Below are positions 1,767 to 10,213 of a stretch of DNA of 64,000 nucleotides, in pieces; positions within the stretch are counted from its first letter, which is position 1; each line of letters begins with the position of its first letter. The notes under the pieces are model-generated. The model was not told the DNA's origin. It did no database searches and worked only from the letters and a program-made list of their open reading frames with translations. The stretch spans positions 434,001 to 498,000 of the forward strand of contig NZ_WOWO01000001.1 of assembly GCF_009831455.1 (NCBI RefSeq). Direction: 5' to 3'. The translations under genes and the position numbers were made by a program. This stretch comes from Salinirussus salinus (GTDB lineage: Archaea; Halobacteriota; Halobacteria; Halobacteriales; Haloarculaceae).

Positions 1767-3587
1767 TCACTCGAGCTGGTGGTAGTCCAGCTCGTGGTCG
1801 GCGTCGAGGGCTTCCTGGACTGCCTCGCTGGGCGTCCCGACCGACTCCGTCGTGAGTCGCATCCCGCCGACGCTGCCGCGCTCGACGACGATGTTTCGCT
1901 TCCAGTCGGGGTCGGTCCCGGGATAATCCGTCCGGGCGTGGGCGCCCCGGGATTCGGTCCGCTCCTGTGCACCCCGGAGGAGTGCCTCGGCGACAACGAG
2001 CCCGAAGCCCAGGTCCAGCGCGTACTCGAAGGACTTGCTTGTGGGCCCGCCGACCGCGAGGTCACTCGCCTTGCGGCGCAGCTCCTGTAGCTCCTCCAGC
2101 CCGGCCGCCAGGCCGGCCTCGGTGCGCAGCAGTCCGGCATGCTCCCAGAGCAGCTCCCGGAGCTCGTCGAGCAGCGCCTCGGGCTCGTGGCTCCCGTCGC
2201 TGCCGGCCAGCCGCCCCAGGTCCGCGAAGTGGTGCCGGGCGCGGTCGTGGAGCCGGTCCGACTCCGGGGCTTCGTCGTCGGACCCGCCCGCGTCGTCGGC
2301 GAGCCGCCGGGCGACCGCTTGCCCGGTCACCTGGCCGAAGGCGATGGTCTCGGCCAGGGAGTTGCCGCCCAGTCTGTTTGCCCCGTGGACGCCGGCCATC
2401 GTCTCGCCGATGGCGTACAGGCCGTCGATGTCGGTCTCGCCCTCGTCGTCGACGCGGACGCCGCCCATCCCGTAGTGGGCCGTCGGTGCGACCTCGACGG
2501 GCTCCTCGGCCATGTCCACCCCCAGGTCCGCGAACCGCTCGTACATCCGCGGGAGCCGCTCCTGGATGAACTCCCGCTCGCGGTGCGAGATGTCGAGGTA
2601 GACGCCGCCGTTCTCAGTTCCGCGGCCCTCCCTGACTTCCCGGGCGATGGCCCGGGCGACCACGTCCCGGGCGTCGAGTTCCATCTGGTCCGGGGAGTAC
2701 CGCTCCATGAACCGCTCGCCCTCGGCGTTGAACAGGCGGCCGCCCTCGCCGCGGACGGCCTCGGTGACCAGGCGCCCGTCCCACTCCTCCCCGTAGCGGT
2801 CGCCGACCATCCCGGTCGGGTGGAACTGGACGAACTCGACGTCCATCAGCCGCGCCCCCGCGAGGTACGCCAGCGCGGGGCCGTCACCGGTGTTCTCGTC
2901 GTCCCGCGAGGAGTGACGGCGGTAGAGGCTCGTGTACCCGCCGGCCGCGAGCACGACCGTCTCCGCGTCGAAGACGACGTACTCTCCGGTGTCCATGTCG
3001 TAGCCAGCCGCGCCCAGCGCTCGCCCGCCCTCGGTCAGCAGCCGGGAGATGAAGACGTTCTCCCGGTACGGGACCGACAGCCCCTGGGCCCGCTCGACGA
3101 GCGTGTTCAGCAGTGACTCGCCCGTGTGGTCGCCCGCGAACGCAGTCCGCCGGAACGACTGCGCACCGAAGTACCGCTGGTCGGGTTCGCCGTCGTCGGT
3201 CCGGCTGAAGGCCATCCCCCAGTCGTCGAGTTCCCGGAGCAGCCCGGGCATCCGCTCGGTTACCGTCTCGACCTTCCCGGGGTCGTTGAGGAAGTGCCCT
3301 TCCTTCAGCGTGTCTGCGGCGTGGACCGTCCAGTCGTCCTCGGGGTCGTGGGTGCCCAGCGCTCCGTTGATCCCGCCGCGGGCCCAGGTCGTGTGGGCGT
3401 CCCCGTGGCCCCGCTTCCCGATGACGAGTATCTCCTCGGGGTCGACACCCTGCTCGACCAACTCGACCGCCGTGCGTGCGCCGGCGGCCCCGGCCCCGAC
3501 GACCAGCACGCCGAGGTCGACGGTCTCATACTCGTCCGGTGCCGCCACGCCCGGCTCACCGTCCGCTGCTCGCGGAGGAATTTCCAT
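1767..3587 (-). CDS. FAD-dependent succinate dehydrogenase/fumarate reductase-like flavoprotein
   Basis: A 606-residue flavoprotein with an N-terminal Rossmann motif VVGAGAAGARTAVE, then AHTTWARGG whose His matches the position that carries covalent FAD in SdhA/FrdA. Further along are FHPTGM, RGEGGRLFN, ARDVVARAI, HYGMGG and the late FAD motif GANRLGGNSLAE. The C-terminal helical domain is of fumarate-reductase type. No iron-sulfur or membrane-anchor subunit lies beside it, so it is not the canonical SDH operon. L-aspartate oxidase (NadB) is the main alternative. ATG 3587 was chosen because tttaac at 3611-3616 lies about 26 bases upstream; ATG 3593 is also possible. Confidence 0.8.
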   Translation of the reverse strand: MEIPPRAADGEPGVAAPDEYETVDLGVLVVGAGAAGARTAVELVEQGVDPEEILVIGKRGHGDAHTTWARGGINGALGTHDPEDDWTVHAADTLKEGHFLNDPGKVETVTERMPGLLRELDDWGMAFSRTDDGEPDQRYFGAQSFRRTAFAGDHTGESLLNTLVERAQGLSVPYRENVFISRLLTEGGRALGAAGYDMDTGEYVVFDAETVVLAAGGYTSLYRRHSSRDDENTGDGPALAYLAGARLMDVEFVQFHPTGMVGDRYGEEWDGRLVTEAVRGEGGRLFNAEGERFMERYSPDQMELDARDVVARAIAREVREGRGTENGGVYLDISHREREFIQERLPRMYERFADLGVDMAEEPVEVAPTAHYGMGGVRVDDEGETDIDGLYAIGETMAGVHGANRLGGNSLAETIAFGQVTGQAVARRLADDAGGSDDEAPESDRLHDRARHHFADLGRLAGSDGSHEPEALLDELRELLWEHAGLLRTEAGLAAGLEELQELRRKASDLAVGGPTSKSFEYALDLGFGLVVAEALLRGAQERTESRGAHARTDYPGTDPDWKRNIVVERGSVGGMRLTTESVGTPSEAVQEALDADHELDYHQLE

Positions 3588-3752
3588 ACCCATTGTTGGG
3601 TCTCTACGCGTTTAACTCCCTCGCCGACGAAGCCGAGAGGAAAGGCGTTTGAGACTCTCTATTGCGAAAATACAGGTAGAAAAACGGTGAAAAATAGGCG
3701 TAGCGGGGCGCTTTCGCGGCCGGTGACTGTCGGCTGCCCGGTTGCCGGTCGG

Positions 3753-4841
3753 TCAGTCGGCGCGCTGGCCGTCCGGTGGCCCCAGGCCGGGGTCGAAGCG
3801 GCGACGCAGCGCCGGGACCAGCCAGGAATCGAGCGAGAAGCGGCCGCTCCCGGTGACCATCAGCGCCGAGGAGAGCCCGAAGAGGGTGATGTGGGCGAGC
3901 ACGGGGTCGTCGGGCAGGCCAAAGAGCGTGGTCGTCAGCAGGACGAAGCCGGCGACGGCGGCCCCGCGGGTGAAGGTGCCGGTGAGGAAGGCCAGCCCGA
4001 CGCCGGCCTCGACGAGCCCAGCGCCGAACACCCACAGCTCCGGAGAGACCGGCACGACCGCGGTGAGGTCGTACTTGGCGACGACCGCGGCGGCCTCGCC
4101 GGGCTGGAGCCACTTCTGTGCGACGCCGAGGTAGACGAAGTTCAGGCCCAGAAACACCCGCAACAGGAGCGGGGTGACCGACCTGTCGACCCCGGCGCGG
4201 GCGAGCAGTTCCCCCGGCGTCGCGACGCCGCGAAAGCGGCTGGCGACGGTGCCGTCGGTGACGACCATCCGCCGGAGCATCATGTCGGCGCTGGGCTGGC
4301 CGGGTCCGACGACGAGGATGGCGAGGAAGCCGGCGACGTACTCGCTGGCAAGCAGCATCTCAGGGAAGTGCGTTCCCAGCCCCCAGAGATAGGCAAGCAG
4401 GCCGAGGGTGGCGACGGCACGGGTCGCCAGCCCGAACAGAAGCAGGAAGCCGACCCCGACCTGGAGCAGGCGGGCGTCGGCGGCGACGCTCGGGGAGAAC
4501 AGATAGCCCGCGAAGCCAGCCCCGACCAGCGGCAGCCCGACCGAGAGCCGGAGCATCCAGGGGAGATACGGCCGGTAGGACTGCAGGGTCCGGCGCGCGA
4601 CCGCGACATCGGGCAGCGAGCCAAAGCGGAGATAGCCCGCCACCAGCGCGAGCACGGCGAGCCCGCCGGCCCCGAGGACAGCGACGTCGGCGGGCGAGGT
4701 GAACACTGTCCGGAACAGCTTCGCCGCCGACCCCTCCGCGCCCGGCTCGACGACGTAGTCGACGTGGGCTGCTGCCGGACCGCTCGCTCCCAACAGCAGC
4801 GCCAGCCCGGATACGACGCCACCGACTGCCCGTCCAGCCAT
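3753..4841 (-). CDS. DoxX-like multi-pass membrane protein
   Basis: A 362-residue protein with an N-terminal signal-like segment ending ASGPAAAH and then about eight hydrophobic helices in two halves. The second half (LNFVYLGVAQKWL, then GAGLVEAGVGLAFLTG) resembles the DoxX/DoxD family, membrane subunits linked in some archaea to quinone-dependent sulfur or thiosulfate oxidation. No DoxA-like partner is visible. A gaataag TATA box (minus strand) 27 bases upstream fixes ATG 4841; longer reading into the upstream gene's promoter is rejected. The exact substrate is unknown. Confidence 0.7.
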   Translation of the reverse strand: MAGRAVGGVVSGLALLLGASGPAAAHVDYVVEPGAEGSAAKLFRTVFTSPADVAVLGAGGLAVLALVAGYLRFGSLPDVAVARRTLQSYRPYLPWMLRLSVGLPLVGAGFAGYLFSPSVAADARLLQVGVGFLLLFGLATRAVATLGLLAYLWGLGTHFPEMLLASEYVAGFLAILVVGPGQPSADMMLRRMVVTDGTVASRFRGVATPGELLARAGVDRSVTPLLLRVFLGLNFVYLGVAQKWLQPGEAAAVVAKYDLTAVVPVSPELWVFGAGLVEAGVGLAFLTGTFTRGAAVAGFVLLTTTLFGLPDDPVLAHITLFGLSSALMVTGSGRFSLDSWLVPALRRRFDPGLGPPDGQRAD

Positions 4842-5796: not shown

Positions 5797-6579
5797 TCAC
5801 GCCGCTTCAACGCGCTCGAACAGCGCCGCGCCCGCGGCGACCATCACGGCCGCGCCGACGATGAGGGCCCCGAAGTCGACCGCAAGCGGGTACGTCGAAG
5901 TGCCCACGAGGACCCCCCGGAGCGCGTCGACGCCGTAGGTCAGCGGGTTCAGCAGGCCGAGATACCGGACGGCGGTCGGGAGCTGGTCCAGCGGGTACAG
6001 CGCCCCCGAGAGGAAAAAGAGTGGGAGGATGGCGAACTGGACGAGGATTCCAAAGCCCTGGGAGTCCCGGAACTGCGAGGCCAGGGCGATCCCGAAGCCG
6101 ACGAACGTCACTGCCAGGAGGCCGAGCACCACGAGCGCCAGCGGTGCGAGCAGCGGCCGGCGGATTTCGAACCCGAGGGGGACCGAGAGCACGAGGATGA
6201 GGAGGCTCTGGACGAGCGCGGTCGTCGAGCCGCCGGCGACCCGGCCGAGCACGATGGAGGTCCGGCTGACCGGCGCGACGAGGATCTCCTTGAGGAAGCC
6301 GACGTCCCGGTCCGCGAGGATCGCCAGGCCAGCGAAGGACGCACCGAAAAGCAGCGTGAAGCCGACGATCCCCGGGACGATGTACTGGAGGTAGTCGACC
6401 CCCTCGGGGATGCCGGGAATGGCCGCGCCGCTGAAGCCGGTCCCCAGAAAGACCAGGAAGAGCAGCGGCGTCAGCAGGGCACCGACCACCTGCGAGGGTG
6501 TCCGGACGAAGCGGGTGACGTCCCGCACCCAGAGCGCGTACACCCCCCGCGGGTCGACCGGGAGACGGGACACGGTCAC
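5797..6579 (-). CDS. ABC-2 type transporter permease
   Basis: A 260-residue membrane subunit of a DrrB/ABC-2 family exporter with six hydrophobic segments and the family's cytosolic-edge helix VAPVSRTSIVLGRVAGG. It starts at GTG 6579, overlapping the TGA of the ATPase gene (GTGA), so translation is probably coupled; in-frame codons further upstream lie inside the ATPase gene. It should pair with the upstream ATPase to export an unknown substrate such as a lipid, drug or polysaccharide. It is the last gene of a three-gene operon SDR-ATPase-permease. Confidence 0.85.
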   Translation of the reverse strand: MTVSRLPVDPRGVYALWVRDVTRFVRTPSQVVGALLTPLLFLVFLGTGFSGAAIPGIPEGVDYLQYIVPGIVGFTLLFGASFAGLAILADRDVGFLKEILVAPVSRTSIVLGRVAGGSTTALVQSLLILVLSVPLGFEIRRPLLAPLALVVLGLLAVTFVGFGIALASQFRDSQGFGILVQFAILPLFFLSGALYPLDQLPTAVRYLGLLNPLTYGVDALRGVLVGTSTYPLAVDFGALIVGAAVMVAAGAALFERVEAA

Positions 6580-7604
6580 TTCCCCCCGTCCGGGCTGCTG
6601 GTCCCGGGCGCTCCCCACCCCTCGTCGCCCGGCCCGCCGCCGGCCGCCGGTTCGGCGAGGCCGCTGTCCCCGCCGGTCCGGACCTCCCGCCCGGTCAGGT
6701 CGAGAAAGACGGTCTCCAGGCTGGGTGCCCGGCGGTCGACGGAAGTGATGGTGACGCCGCTCTCGTCGGCCAGCCGGACCACGTCCGCGACCCGGCGGGC
6801 GCCGTCGTCGACGGTGACGCTCAGACCGTCGGTCGTGGCCTCGACGCCGGCCACCCAGTCGACCCCGCGCAGCCGGTCGGCCAGCGCGGCGGTGTCGTCG
6901 GCGGCTCCGACGGCGACCACGTCCCCGCCCAGACTCGCCTTGAGCCGGGCGGGGCTGTCCAGCGCGACCACGCTCCCGTCGTCGACGATGGCCACCCGGT
7001 CACAGAGCGCGTCGGCCTCCTCCATGTAGTGGGTGGTCATGACGACGGTGACGCCGCGGTCGTTGAGCGCGCGGATGTACTCCCAAGTGTCCCGACGGGT
7101 CCCGGCATCCAGACCGAGCGTCGGCTCGTCGAGGAAGAGCACCGCCGGCTCGTGGAGAAAGCCCCGCGCGATCTCCAGGCGGCGTTTCATCCCGCCCGAG
7201 TAGGTGTCGACGGTGTCGTCGGCGACGTCGGCCAGGTCGACCAGCCCGAGCACCTCGGCCACGCGCTCGCGACGGCGGGCCCGCGAGAGCCCGTAGAGGC
7301 GGGCGTGAAAGACGAGGTTCTCGACCCCCGTGAGTTCCTCGTCGAGCGCGGGCTCCTGGAAGACGACCCCGATCGAGCCCCGGACGGCGTCGCGCTCGGT
7401 CCGGATGTCGTGGCCGTTCACCGCCGCGGTCCCGGCTGTCGGCCGGACCAGCGTACAGCACATACCGATCAGCGTCGACTTGCCGGCCCCGTTGGGTCCC
7501 AGCAGGCCGAACAGCTCACCCTCCTCGACGGCAAACGAGAGGTCGTCGACAGCGACGGTGTCACCGAACTCCCGGCGGAGCCCCTCGACGCTGATCGCCG
7601 CCAT
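6576..7604 (-). CDS. DrrA-type ABC transporter ATP-binding protein
   Basis: A 342-residue ATPase. It has Walker A GPNGAGKST, Q-loop FQEPALDEELT, signature YSGGMKRRLEIARG, Walker B AVLFLDEPTLGLD and the switch His in TTHYMEEAD. The C-terminal DUF4162-like regulatory extension (about residues 225-310) is typical of DrrA/CcmA-like exporters. ATG 7604 begins two bases after the stop of the SDR gene, and the 3' end overlaps the permease start. It powers the adjacent ABC-2 permease; the cargo is unknown. Confidence 0.9.
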   Translation of the reverse strand: MAAISVEGLRREFGDTVAVDDLSFAVEEGELFGLLGPNGAGKSTLIGMCCTLVRPTAGTAAVNGHDIRTERDAVRGSIGVVFQEPALDEELTGVENLVFHARLYGLSRARRRERVAEVLGLVDLADVADDTVDTYSGGMKRRLEIARGFLHEPAVLFLDEPTLGLDAGTRRDTWEYIRALNDRGVTVVMTTHYMEEADALCDRVAIVDDGSVVALDSPARLKASLGGDVVAVGAADDTAALADRLRGVDWVAGVEATTDGLSVTVDDGARRVADVVRLADESGVTITSVDRRAPSLETVFLDLTGREVRTGGDSGLAEPAAGGGPGDEGWGAPGTSSPDGGK

Positions 7605-8611: not shown

Positions 8612-9595
8612 TCACCCCGGCCGGACGGACGTGACGACCGACGGCAGGCTGTCGACCGCTGCGAGGAACGCACGGGCACCCAGACAGGCTGTGAACGCGA
8701 CCGTGCCGAGCTTGCCGCCGAACCCGCCGAAGTACGGCGTCACGGCAACGAACAGCACGCCACAGAGAACTCCCGTCCCCAGCATGACCCGCTCGTCGGG
8801 GAGCCGGTCCGGGCGCGCCATCCCCGCGAAGGAGGCACAGAAGGCGACGGCGGCGACCGCCTCCCCCGCCCCGAGCAGCGGCGGGGCGACCAGCCCGGCG
8901 GTCAGGCCGACGACCCCCGACCCGACGACCGGGCCGTGCCCGAGCCGGACGCTCGCCACGAAGGTCGCGACCGCTGCGGCGCCGGCGCTCCCGACGAGCA
9001 GGGTCGCTGTCTCCAGCGGCGGGATCGGTGCCGGCGCCGCCGGGGCGGAGCCGGTCGCGAGCACGACGGCCCCGCAGCCGACGAACGCGGTCGTCCCCAG
9101 CTTGCCGCCGAAGCCGTCGAACAGCCCGGCGGCGAGGACGAACACCGCGCCGGCGGCGAACCCGGCGGCCGCGACCGCGGCGTAGGACCCGAGCACCTCC
9201 GTCCCGGCCATCCCGACGAAGGAGCCACAGTAGACCGGCACCCCGTACTCGGGGAGGGCCAGCCCGGCGACGAGCCCGACGAGCGCCGAGGCCACAACGA
9301 CGCCGAGGCCGGCCTCGACCGCGAGCCAGCGGGTCACCGGCGCCCCGGCGGCGACGGCGAGCGCGTTCGCCGCGTCCCCCGCGCCCGGCGCGGTCCGGTC
9401 GCCGGTCACCACCTGCCGGGTCTCCCGGACGGCGAGATACGCCACCGACGAGAGCACGGCGACGGCCGGAATCACCGACGCGACGAGCGGGGACCCGACG
9501 GCCGGCGCTGTCAGTCCGTAGACGCCGGCGACGCCCATCGCGACGGCCGCAGCCGCCAGCAGGCCCGCACCGGCGACCCGAGCGACGGTCCACAC
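8612..9595 (-). CDS. Multi-pass membrane protein with an exact internal duplication
   Basis: A 327-residue, Gly/Ala/Val-rich protein with about eight to ten hydrophobic segments. It contains two copies of a module: C123-GSFVGMA followed 38 residues later by GFGGKLGTTAFVGC (161-174), and C253-ASFAGMA followed again 38 residues later by GFGGKLGTVAFTAC (291-304). The Cys, FxGMA and GFGGKLG positions are retained at a period of exactly 130 residues. I do not recognise a named family. An inverted-topology carrier or channel with paired Gly-rich pore loops is one possibility, by inference only. The start is GTG 9595. The next gene upstream also encodes a membrane protein. Confidence 0.75.
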   Translation of the reverse strand: MWTVARVAGAGLLAAAAVAMGVAGVYGLTAPAVGSPLVASVIPAVAVLSSVAYLAVRETRQVVTGDRTAPGAGDAANALAVAAGAPVTRWLAVEAGLGVVVASALVGLVAGLALPEYGVPVYCGSFVGMAGTEVLGSYAAVAAAGFAAGAVFVLAAGLFDGFGGKLGTTAFVGCGAVVLATGSAPAAPAPIPPLETATLLVGSAGAAAVATFVASVRLGHGPVVGSGVVGLTAGLVAPPLLGAGEAVAAVAFCASFAGMARPDRLPDERVMLGTGVLCGVLFVAVTPYFGGFGGKLGTVAFTACLGARAFLAAVDSLPSVVTSVRPG

Positions 9596-9664: not shown

Positions 9665-10213
9665 TCAGCCGCGGGCCGCCGCCAGCTCCCACCGGACGGC
9701 GTAGAGCCAGGCGGCGACTCCGAGGGCGCCCGGAACGAGGCGGACGCCGCCGTCGACCAGCAGGAACCCGACCGTCCCGGCCACACAGCCCGCGACCGCA
9801 CCCACAGCCGCCCACCGCGAGACCCGCGGGTGCGAGCGCCCCGGCTCGAGCAGGTCCGCGACCTCCACGGCTCCCCAGGCGACCATCGCGACCGCGAGAC
9901 CGGACCCCGCGGTCAACCGGCCGAACGGCCCGCCGGCGCCGGCCGCGCCAGCCACCCAGCCGACGGCGACTGCGGCCGCCAGCCCGCCGGCGACCGCCCC
10001 GAGCAGTTGCTCGCCGCGGGTGTGGTCGACGAGCGACACCGCCGCCCCCGCGAGCACCGCAGCGGCGACGACCGCGTCCGCGTCGACACTCCCGACCGGG
10101 AGCGCGAGAACGACTGGGTCGCCGCCGACCCGGAGGTACGGAAGCGGTATCGAGGCGACCGCGAGCGCCGCGCCGGTGCCGGCGGCCAGCCGCTCGCCGC
10201 CCGGGTACTCCAT
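9665..10213 (-). CDS. Hypothetical multi-pass membrane protein
   Basis: A 182-residue, Ala/Gly/Val-rich protein with about five predicted membrane helices and no recognisable motif. It lies 69 bases upstream of, and in the same direction as, the duplicated membrane protein gene, so the two may be co-expressed. ATG 10213 is the first in-frame start. Codon use is normal for the window. No function can be assigned. Confidence 0.65.
   Translation of the reverse strand: MEYPGGERLAAGTGAALAVASIPLPYLRVGGDPVVLALPVGSVDADAVVAAAVLAGAAVSLVDHTRGEQLLGAVAGGLAAAVAVGWVAGAAGAGGPFGRLTAGSGLAVAMVAWGAVEVADLLEPGRSHPRVSRWAAVGAVAGCVAGTVGFLLVDGGVRLVPGALGVAAWLYAVRWELAAARG

Follow-up and report, generated by a model that had tools for sequence, protein, structure and literature searches.

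A membrane protein gene and its internal repeat

The window (the whole stretch of 64,000 nucleotides of Salinirussus salinus DNA that was analysed) carries the gene for the membrane protein whose parts are listed in Table 1. It is flanked by genes for an SDR oxidoreductase, for a small membrane protein and for a protein of the MscS type, none of them conserved around relatives of the gene. An ARAGORN tRNA call at 9908–9997, with the anticodon cggc and no assigned amino acid, lies within a protein-coding frame and is probably false.

Table 1. Parts of the membrane protein, with window coordinates and the basis of each assignment
Feature	Residues	Position	Strand	Basis
Membrane protein, 327 aa, GTG start		8612..9595	minus	ORF call and HMM relatives
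Two N-terminal helices	2-64	9404..9592	minus	AlphaFold model
Module 1, five helical elements	72-181	9053..9382	minus	Model, conservation and half-profile comparison
YCGSFVGMA motif, module 1	122-130	9206..9232	minus	Repeat and conservation
GFGGKLGTTAFVGC motif, module 1	161-174	9074..9115	minus	Lys165 in 71/71 aligned rows
Linker	182-193	9017..9052	minus	Family-average acidic; predicted outside
Module 2, five helical elements, opposite in orientation to module 1	194-316	8648..9016	minus	Model, charge pattern and half-profile comparison
FCASFAGMA motif, module 2	252-260	8816..8842	minus	Repeat and conservation
GFGGKLGTVAFTAC motif, module 2	291-304	8684..8725	minus	Lys295 in 71/71 aligned rows

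The protein is built from two homologous modules of about 110 residues each. CGSFVGMA starts at residue 123 and CASFAGMA at residue 253, and GFGGKLG starts at residues 161 and 291, giving a period of 130 residues with a Cys-to-GFGG spacing of 38 in both halves, exactly as a preliminary description of this DNA had read it. That description had proposed a self-alignment, and the local BLOSUM62 score of the two halves (162) lies above all of 1000 shuffles (mean 51.9, SD 8.8, maximum 92), while comparison of the profile of one half with that of the other gives 99.9% with an E value of 6.8e-34. An ungapped whole-length offset count gives 42/197 identities at offset 130 and 41/223 at offset 104, a measure that is weak by itself because the motif blocks are separated by gaps. 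The repeat is real and not a product of chance.

Relatives, conserved motifs and split forms

Relatives were found by BLAST in nine of 58 near genomes, the window's own genome included, and by HMM in 107 of the 391 genomes of the class Halobacteria. The bacterial samples take their group names from the loci on which they were centred, and each includes its centre genome, a known relative; they yielded 21/299 (Bacillota), 9/130 (Spirochaetota), 1/101 (Chloroflexota) and 4/148 (the class of Dethiosulfatibacter). A scan of a genome-contig collection returned 421 relatives, and the 80 that were kept come, by record title, from haloarchaea, Spirochaetota, Atribacterota, Acetothermia, Mollicutes, Anaerolineae, Thermosipho, Synergistaceae and others. 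As judged from these sequences, the family is one of haloarchaea and many anaerobic bacteria. No relative was found among viral contigs and no plasmid matched the window protein; the family has one partial plasmid match, a protein of Natrinema zhouii annotated as hypothetical. At one locus (L163, G713:C94:4920-5879 and 6226-7182) two full-length copies lie in tandem.

The preliminary description knew of no named family, and none has come to light. The window protein lacks a Pfam match at E ≤ 1, and Pfam, NCBIfam and PDB sequence searches with the protein, the profile and the half-genes described below gave nothing usable. A literature search, conducted mostly short of full texts, returned no description of the family; HTSR_0446, which PMC5437934 names as a formate transporter of a haloarchaeon, may belong to this family or to another.

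Conservation was counted on relatives found by BLAST and HMM. The scan of the genome-contig collection had matched the motifs as patterns, and a count on that set is therefore partly built in. Each half-profile recovers on average two modules per locus, with 80 rows from 40 haloarchaeal loci, 48 from 23 Bacillota loci and 16–17 from eight Spirochaetota loci, and the profile lines for half 1 and half 2 largely count the same modules twice. FxGM and GxGGKxG are present in nearly every module with few substitutions. Among the haloarchaeal modules F126, G128, M129, G161, G163, G164 and G167 are found in 80/80 and Lys165 in 79/80; among those of Bacillota M129 is found in 48/48 and position 165 is Lys or Arg in 47/48. 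The only charged columns that reach at least 80% in the 71 aligned rows are E58, K165, R264 and K295, and no His column does so. The Gly-rich loops with their Lys, to which attention had been drawn from the start, are thus conserved in both halves of the relatives. The broader suggestion that all of the exactly repeated residues are functional needs correction as regards the Cys: in the 48 Bacillota modules the four commonest letters at this position are C (22), T (19), A (5) and S (1), so the cysteines are replaceable and therefore unlikely to be essential.

Half-length homologues had been sought, and they occur as adjacent gene pairs in one clade of Bacillota. In 14 loci (L151, L152, L153, L156–L160, L166, L167, L217, L218, L219 and L221) module 1 and module 2 are encoded by two neighbouring genes, in that order and 0–93 bp apart, although at L160 the match of the first half-gene to module 1 is partial. 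Twelve of these pairs were included in the tree, where they form a single clade (SH-aLRT 99) that lies among the fused forms and adjoins a Mollicutes clade (SH-aLRT 92); because the tree is unrooted, fission and an ancestral split state are indistinguishable. Most half-length forms lack the two N-terminal helices, as does the form found in Spirochaetota.

Opposed modules and probable kinship to urea and ammonia channels

The mean number of K+R residues per loop and sequence is 0.08/0.66/0.07/0.85 in module 1 and 1.17/0.03/1.66/0.00 in module 2, with 3.32 at the C-terminus. The charge pattern is thus mirrored between the halves, which by the positive-inside rule indicates that the modules, each crossing the membrane five times, are oppositely oriented, an inversion that the preliminary description had left to be checked. 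On this pattern the linker would be external, and both termini and the loop preceding module 1 would be internal. AlphaFold models of the whole protein, calculated on 71 rows (pLDDT 94.1, pTM 0.92), and of the core alone (pLDDT 96.1, pTM 0.92) are confident, and both have five helices per half.

The full-length model found no significant Foldseek match, a search that is uninformative because its pair of long N-terminal helices has matches in many proteins; the core was therefore modelled alone. With this core model, Foldseek ranks 1–4 are all occupied by the Desulfovibrio urea transporter (E 0.09–0.19, not significant; probability 0.75–0.89, TM 0.40–0.41), and 49 of the 50 rows listed by VIA are UT, Amt/Rh/Mep or RnfD/NqrB. 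All of these scores lie below the level trusted by the tool, and the Z values of 4.2–6.5 over 157–195 aligned residues in rows 1–49 (UT: Z 5.6–6.2, rmsd 4.7–6.2, 157–195 aligned; best Amt row: Z 6.5, rmsd 4.1, 165 aligned) are of a kind that can reflect a common arrangement. We nevertheless take the kinship seriously because nearly the whole list consists of the inverted 5+5 fold group. A viral structure library gave no match to the model. Taking charge pattern and model together, we regard a predicted inverted architecture of the UT/Amt kind as well supported, and fold kinship to urea and ammonia channels as probable on the model. The earlier likening to pseudo-symmetric carriers was apt as regards a pseudo-symmetric, transporter-like protein, although the structural kin are urea and ammonia channels rather than carriers in general.

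The family nonetheless differs from each of the known systems that it resembles. It has the 5+5 inverted repeat of the urea transporters (SLC14; dvUT, 3k3g/3me1), the top-ranked fold for the core model, but differs from them in lacking a Pfam match, in having halves that are alike in sequence, in the existence of split half-length genes and in its own conserved Lys and Cys/Thr motifs. The same 5+5 architecture is found in Amt/Rh/Mep (Z 5.2–6.5), from which the present family is set apart by the lack of a conserved His and of an AmtB sequence match, and RnfD/NqrB provide further related fold rows (Z 4.2–5.1), whereas there is no RsxD sequence match (hhalign 0.2%) and the gene contexts are not Rnf/Nqr operons. 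To the FNT channels (FocA, FdhC) the likeness would be one of role, together with an FDH gene context; there is neither a PF01226 match nor a FocA profile match, and 5+5 segments stand against about 3+3, given as 3.5 segments per unit in PMC3962082. PF01226 was found in none of 10 relatives searched against Pfam. When the family profile was compared with AmtB, RsxD and FocA of E. coli, each represented by a single sequence, all three gave less than 1%, like unrelated controls.

Gene neighbourhoods and the candidate substrate

The neighbourhoods of relatives provide further insight into the possible role of the family. FdhA, FdhD or FTHFS is encoded in the flank of 22 of the 80 genome-contig loci, co-directionally in 17 of the 22, where an FdhA neighbour means at least 300 aligned residues; the remaining 58 have none of the three within the available flank, which is often shortened by contig ends. 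In Bacillota one or more of these genes accompany 16/23 loci as compared with 0/20 control regions, the latter being 16 kb regions at arbitrary positions in 12 of these genomes, with some seeds taken from test loci. The 23 are drawn from 26 known loci (counted once per genome, except for two in G480) in related and hence not independent genomes, and the three outside the count have no such neighbour (L105), a hydrogenase (L050) or FTHFS (L120, Dethiosulfatibacter, with FTHFS and cyclohydrolase genes directly upstream). Among the further haloarchaeal loci two of 40, both of one genus, have FdhA. With at least 16 changes of the formate label on the 116-row tree, the link is a recurrent one, and it extends across Bacillota, Spirochaetota, Atribacterota, Acetothermia and haloarchaea.

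The half-genes lie in the order selA-selB-selD-fdhD-half1-half2-moeA at L151 and half1-half2-fdhA-fdhD at L218, and at L161 and L162 the family gene directly follows an fdhA with a TGA inside it. All five FDH-alpha frames checked (L161, at 9884-9886, L162, L218, L220 and L114) are broken by TGA, which fits selenocysteine. L050 was rejected as an FDH locus, its neighbour at 2805-4643 being an NADH-dependent [FeFe] hydrogenase, as were L074, L077, L090, L094 and L106, where the hit length revealed only short, hydrogenase-like matches. In seven Mollicutes loci, which form one clade in the tree, the family gene comes right after the genes for threonine dehydrogenase and KBL (tdh-kbl). The order at these loci (L085, L089, L096, L098, L099, L102 and L118) is operon-like, and genes for an alpha/beta hydrolase and HTH-TPR regulators lie nearby.

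The window gene itself lacks informative neighbours, and its role is read from its kin. In the tree it lies closest to the gene of Haloglomus irregulare (L043; 57% identity, SH-aLRT 84), about 100 bp after which a co-directional fdhA begins, and the best FDH-alpha match of the window's own genome (C1:92147-94186) lies about 350 kb from the family gene. The haloarchaeal FdhA proteins tested score 667.5–674, narrowly above the NCBIfam cut-off of 666.25, and one ended by a contig edge scores below it. As TIGR01591 exceeds its cut-off in 289/391 Halobacteria genomes and FdhD (PF02634) is found in 0/391, co-occurrence with FDH in this class was dropped as evidence; judging from their sequences, these FDH-like proteins may have a different maturation or may be other enzymes.

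FNT (PF01226) is present in six of 30 family-bearing genomes. In Bacillota it is found in one (G582) of 14 genomes that have the family gene near FdhA or FdhD, as compared with six of the eight that have FdhD among 20 genomes without the family, a difference with a Fisher p of 0.0023 in a small sample of unmatched lineages uncorrected for kinship. Where Bacillota genomes have the family, it thus tends to take the place of FNT; in the Atribacteria loci L047 and L048 an FNT gene lies in the same cluster as the family gene.

With these gene contexts as the guide to the substrate, we propose that the family comprises channels of UT/Amt architecture for formate (or formic acid) or another carboxylate of similarly small size, a proposal to which we give about an even chance. 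Formate is what the FDH, FdhD and FTHFS neighbours most simply have in common, while the Mollicutes and hydrogenase contexts leave room for wider or other substrates. The same architecture might instead serve glycine, threonine or acetate, with formate as one of several substrates; tdh-kbl converts threonine to glycine and acetyl-CoA, and the position of the gene after tdh-kbl together with the many loci that lack formate genes would be accounted for in this way. We consider this alternative unlikely, however, as the formate link recurs across five groups whereas the seven tdh-kbl rows amount to a single clade. A channel for CO2, NH3 or another gas or neutral molecule, serving an FDH that consumes or produces CO2, would agree with the fold kin UT, Amt and Rh. 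Amt channels have a twin-His pore, to which the present family has no conserved counterpart; the two invariant Lys are better suited to an anion and the FTHFS neighbours use formate rather than CO2, so that we find a gas channel improbable.

There are two further alternatives. That the protein takes up molybdate, tungstate or a selenium oxyanion, to be used in the FDH cofactor or in selenocysteine, is suggested by fdhD, moeA and selA/selB/selD around the half-gene pairs (L151, L167 and relatives) and by the in-frame TGA codons, but none of these genes lies near the FTHFS loci L049, L120 and L216 or the tdh-kbl loci in the stretch examined, and we attach to it the same low probability as to a gas channel. 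Slightly less probable again is a role within NADH-linked redox complexes (FDH, hydrogenase), as their membrane subunit or anchor in the manner of RnfD/NqrB, notwithstanding the presence of these proteins among the structure rows and of NuoF, FdhA or HydA among the neighbours, since the FTHFS, tdh-kbl and fdhD/selABD/moeA contexts contain no partner complex and there is neither a profile match to RsxD nor a Pfam match.

The mechanism that we propose for a formate channel is that the two five-segment modules, in their opposite orientations, would form one pseudo-symmetric pathway. On each side of it the Gly-rich loop of one half, with its one invariant Lys (or Arg), would attract the anion, and a narrow hydrophobic middle would be provided by the FxGM helices. 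Flow would then follow the gradient and could serve the adjacent FDH or formate-THF ligase in many relatives. The pair of Lys as attractor and the FxGM constriction are a hypothesis modelled on what is generally known of FNT channels.

Formate transport is understood via FNT, yet most FDH-linked Bacillota genomes with the family gene have no FNT; a second channel family, if the proposal is correct, would explain formate movement there and offer parts for formate-based biotechnology. A more tentative suggestion, which we hold to be rather less than evenly poised, is that this is a formate channel family independent of FNT and built on the urea/ammonia fold, whose sequence-alike halves, split in one clade, would preserve in present-day proteins the duplication and fusion from which the UT/Amt/RnfD fold arose. 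Internal repeats of the inverted kind are described in PMC3962082 as evident in structure and not in sequence, and for this reason the split halves would allow a direct test of the origin of inverted-repeat channels.

The form found in eight Spirochaetota genomes (L208–L215) is about 510–530 aa long (one is ended by a contig edge), the core being followed by about 200 soluble residues. This extension has no Pfam assignment in the one member tested; by eye it looks GAF-like, a likeness that would point to a form that is gated or acts as a sensor.
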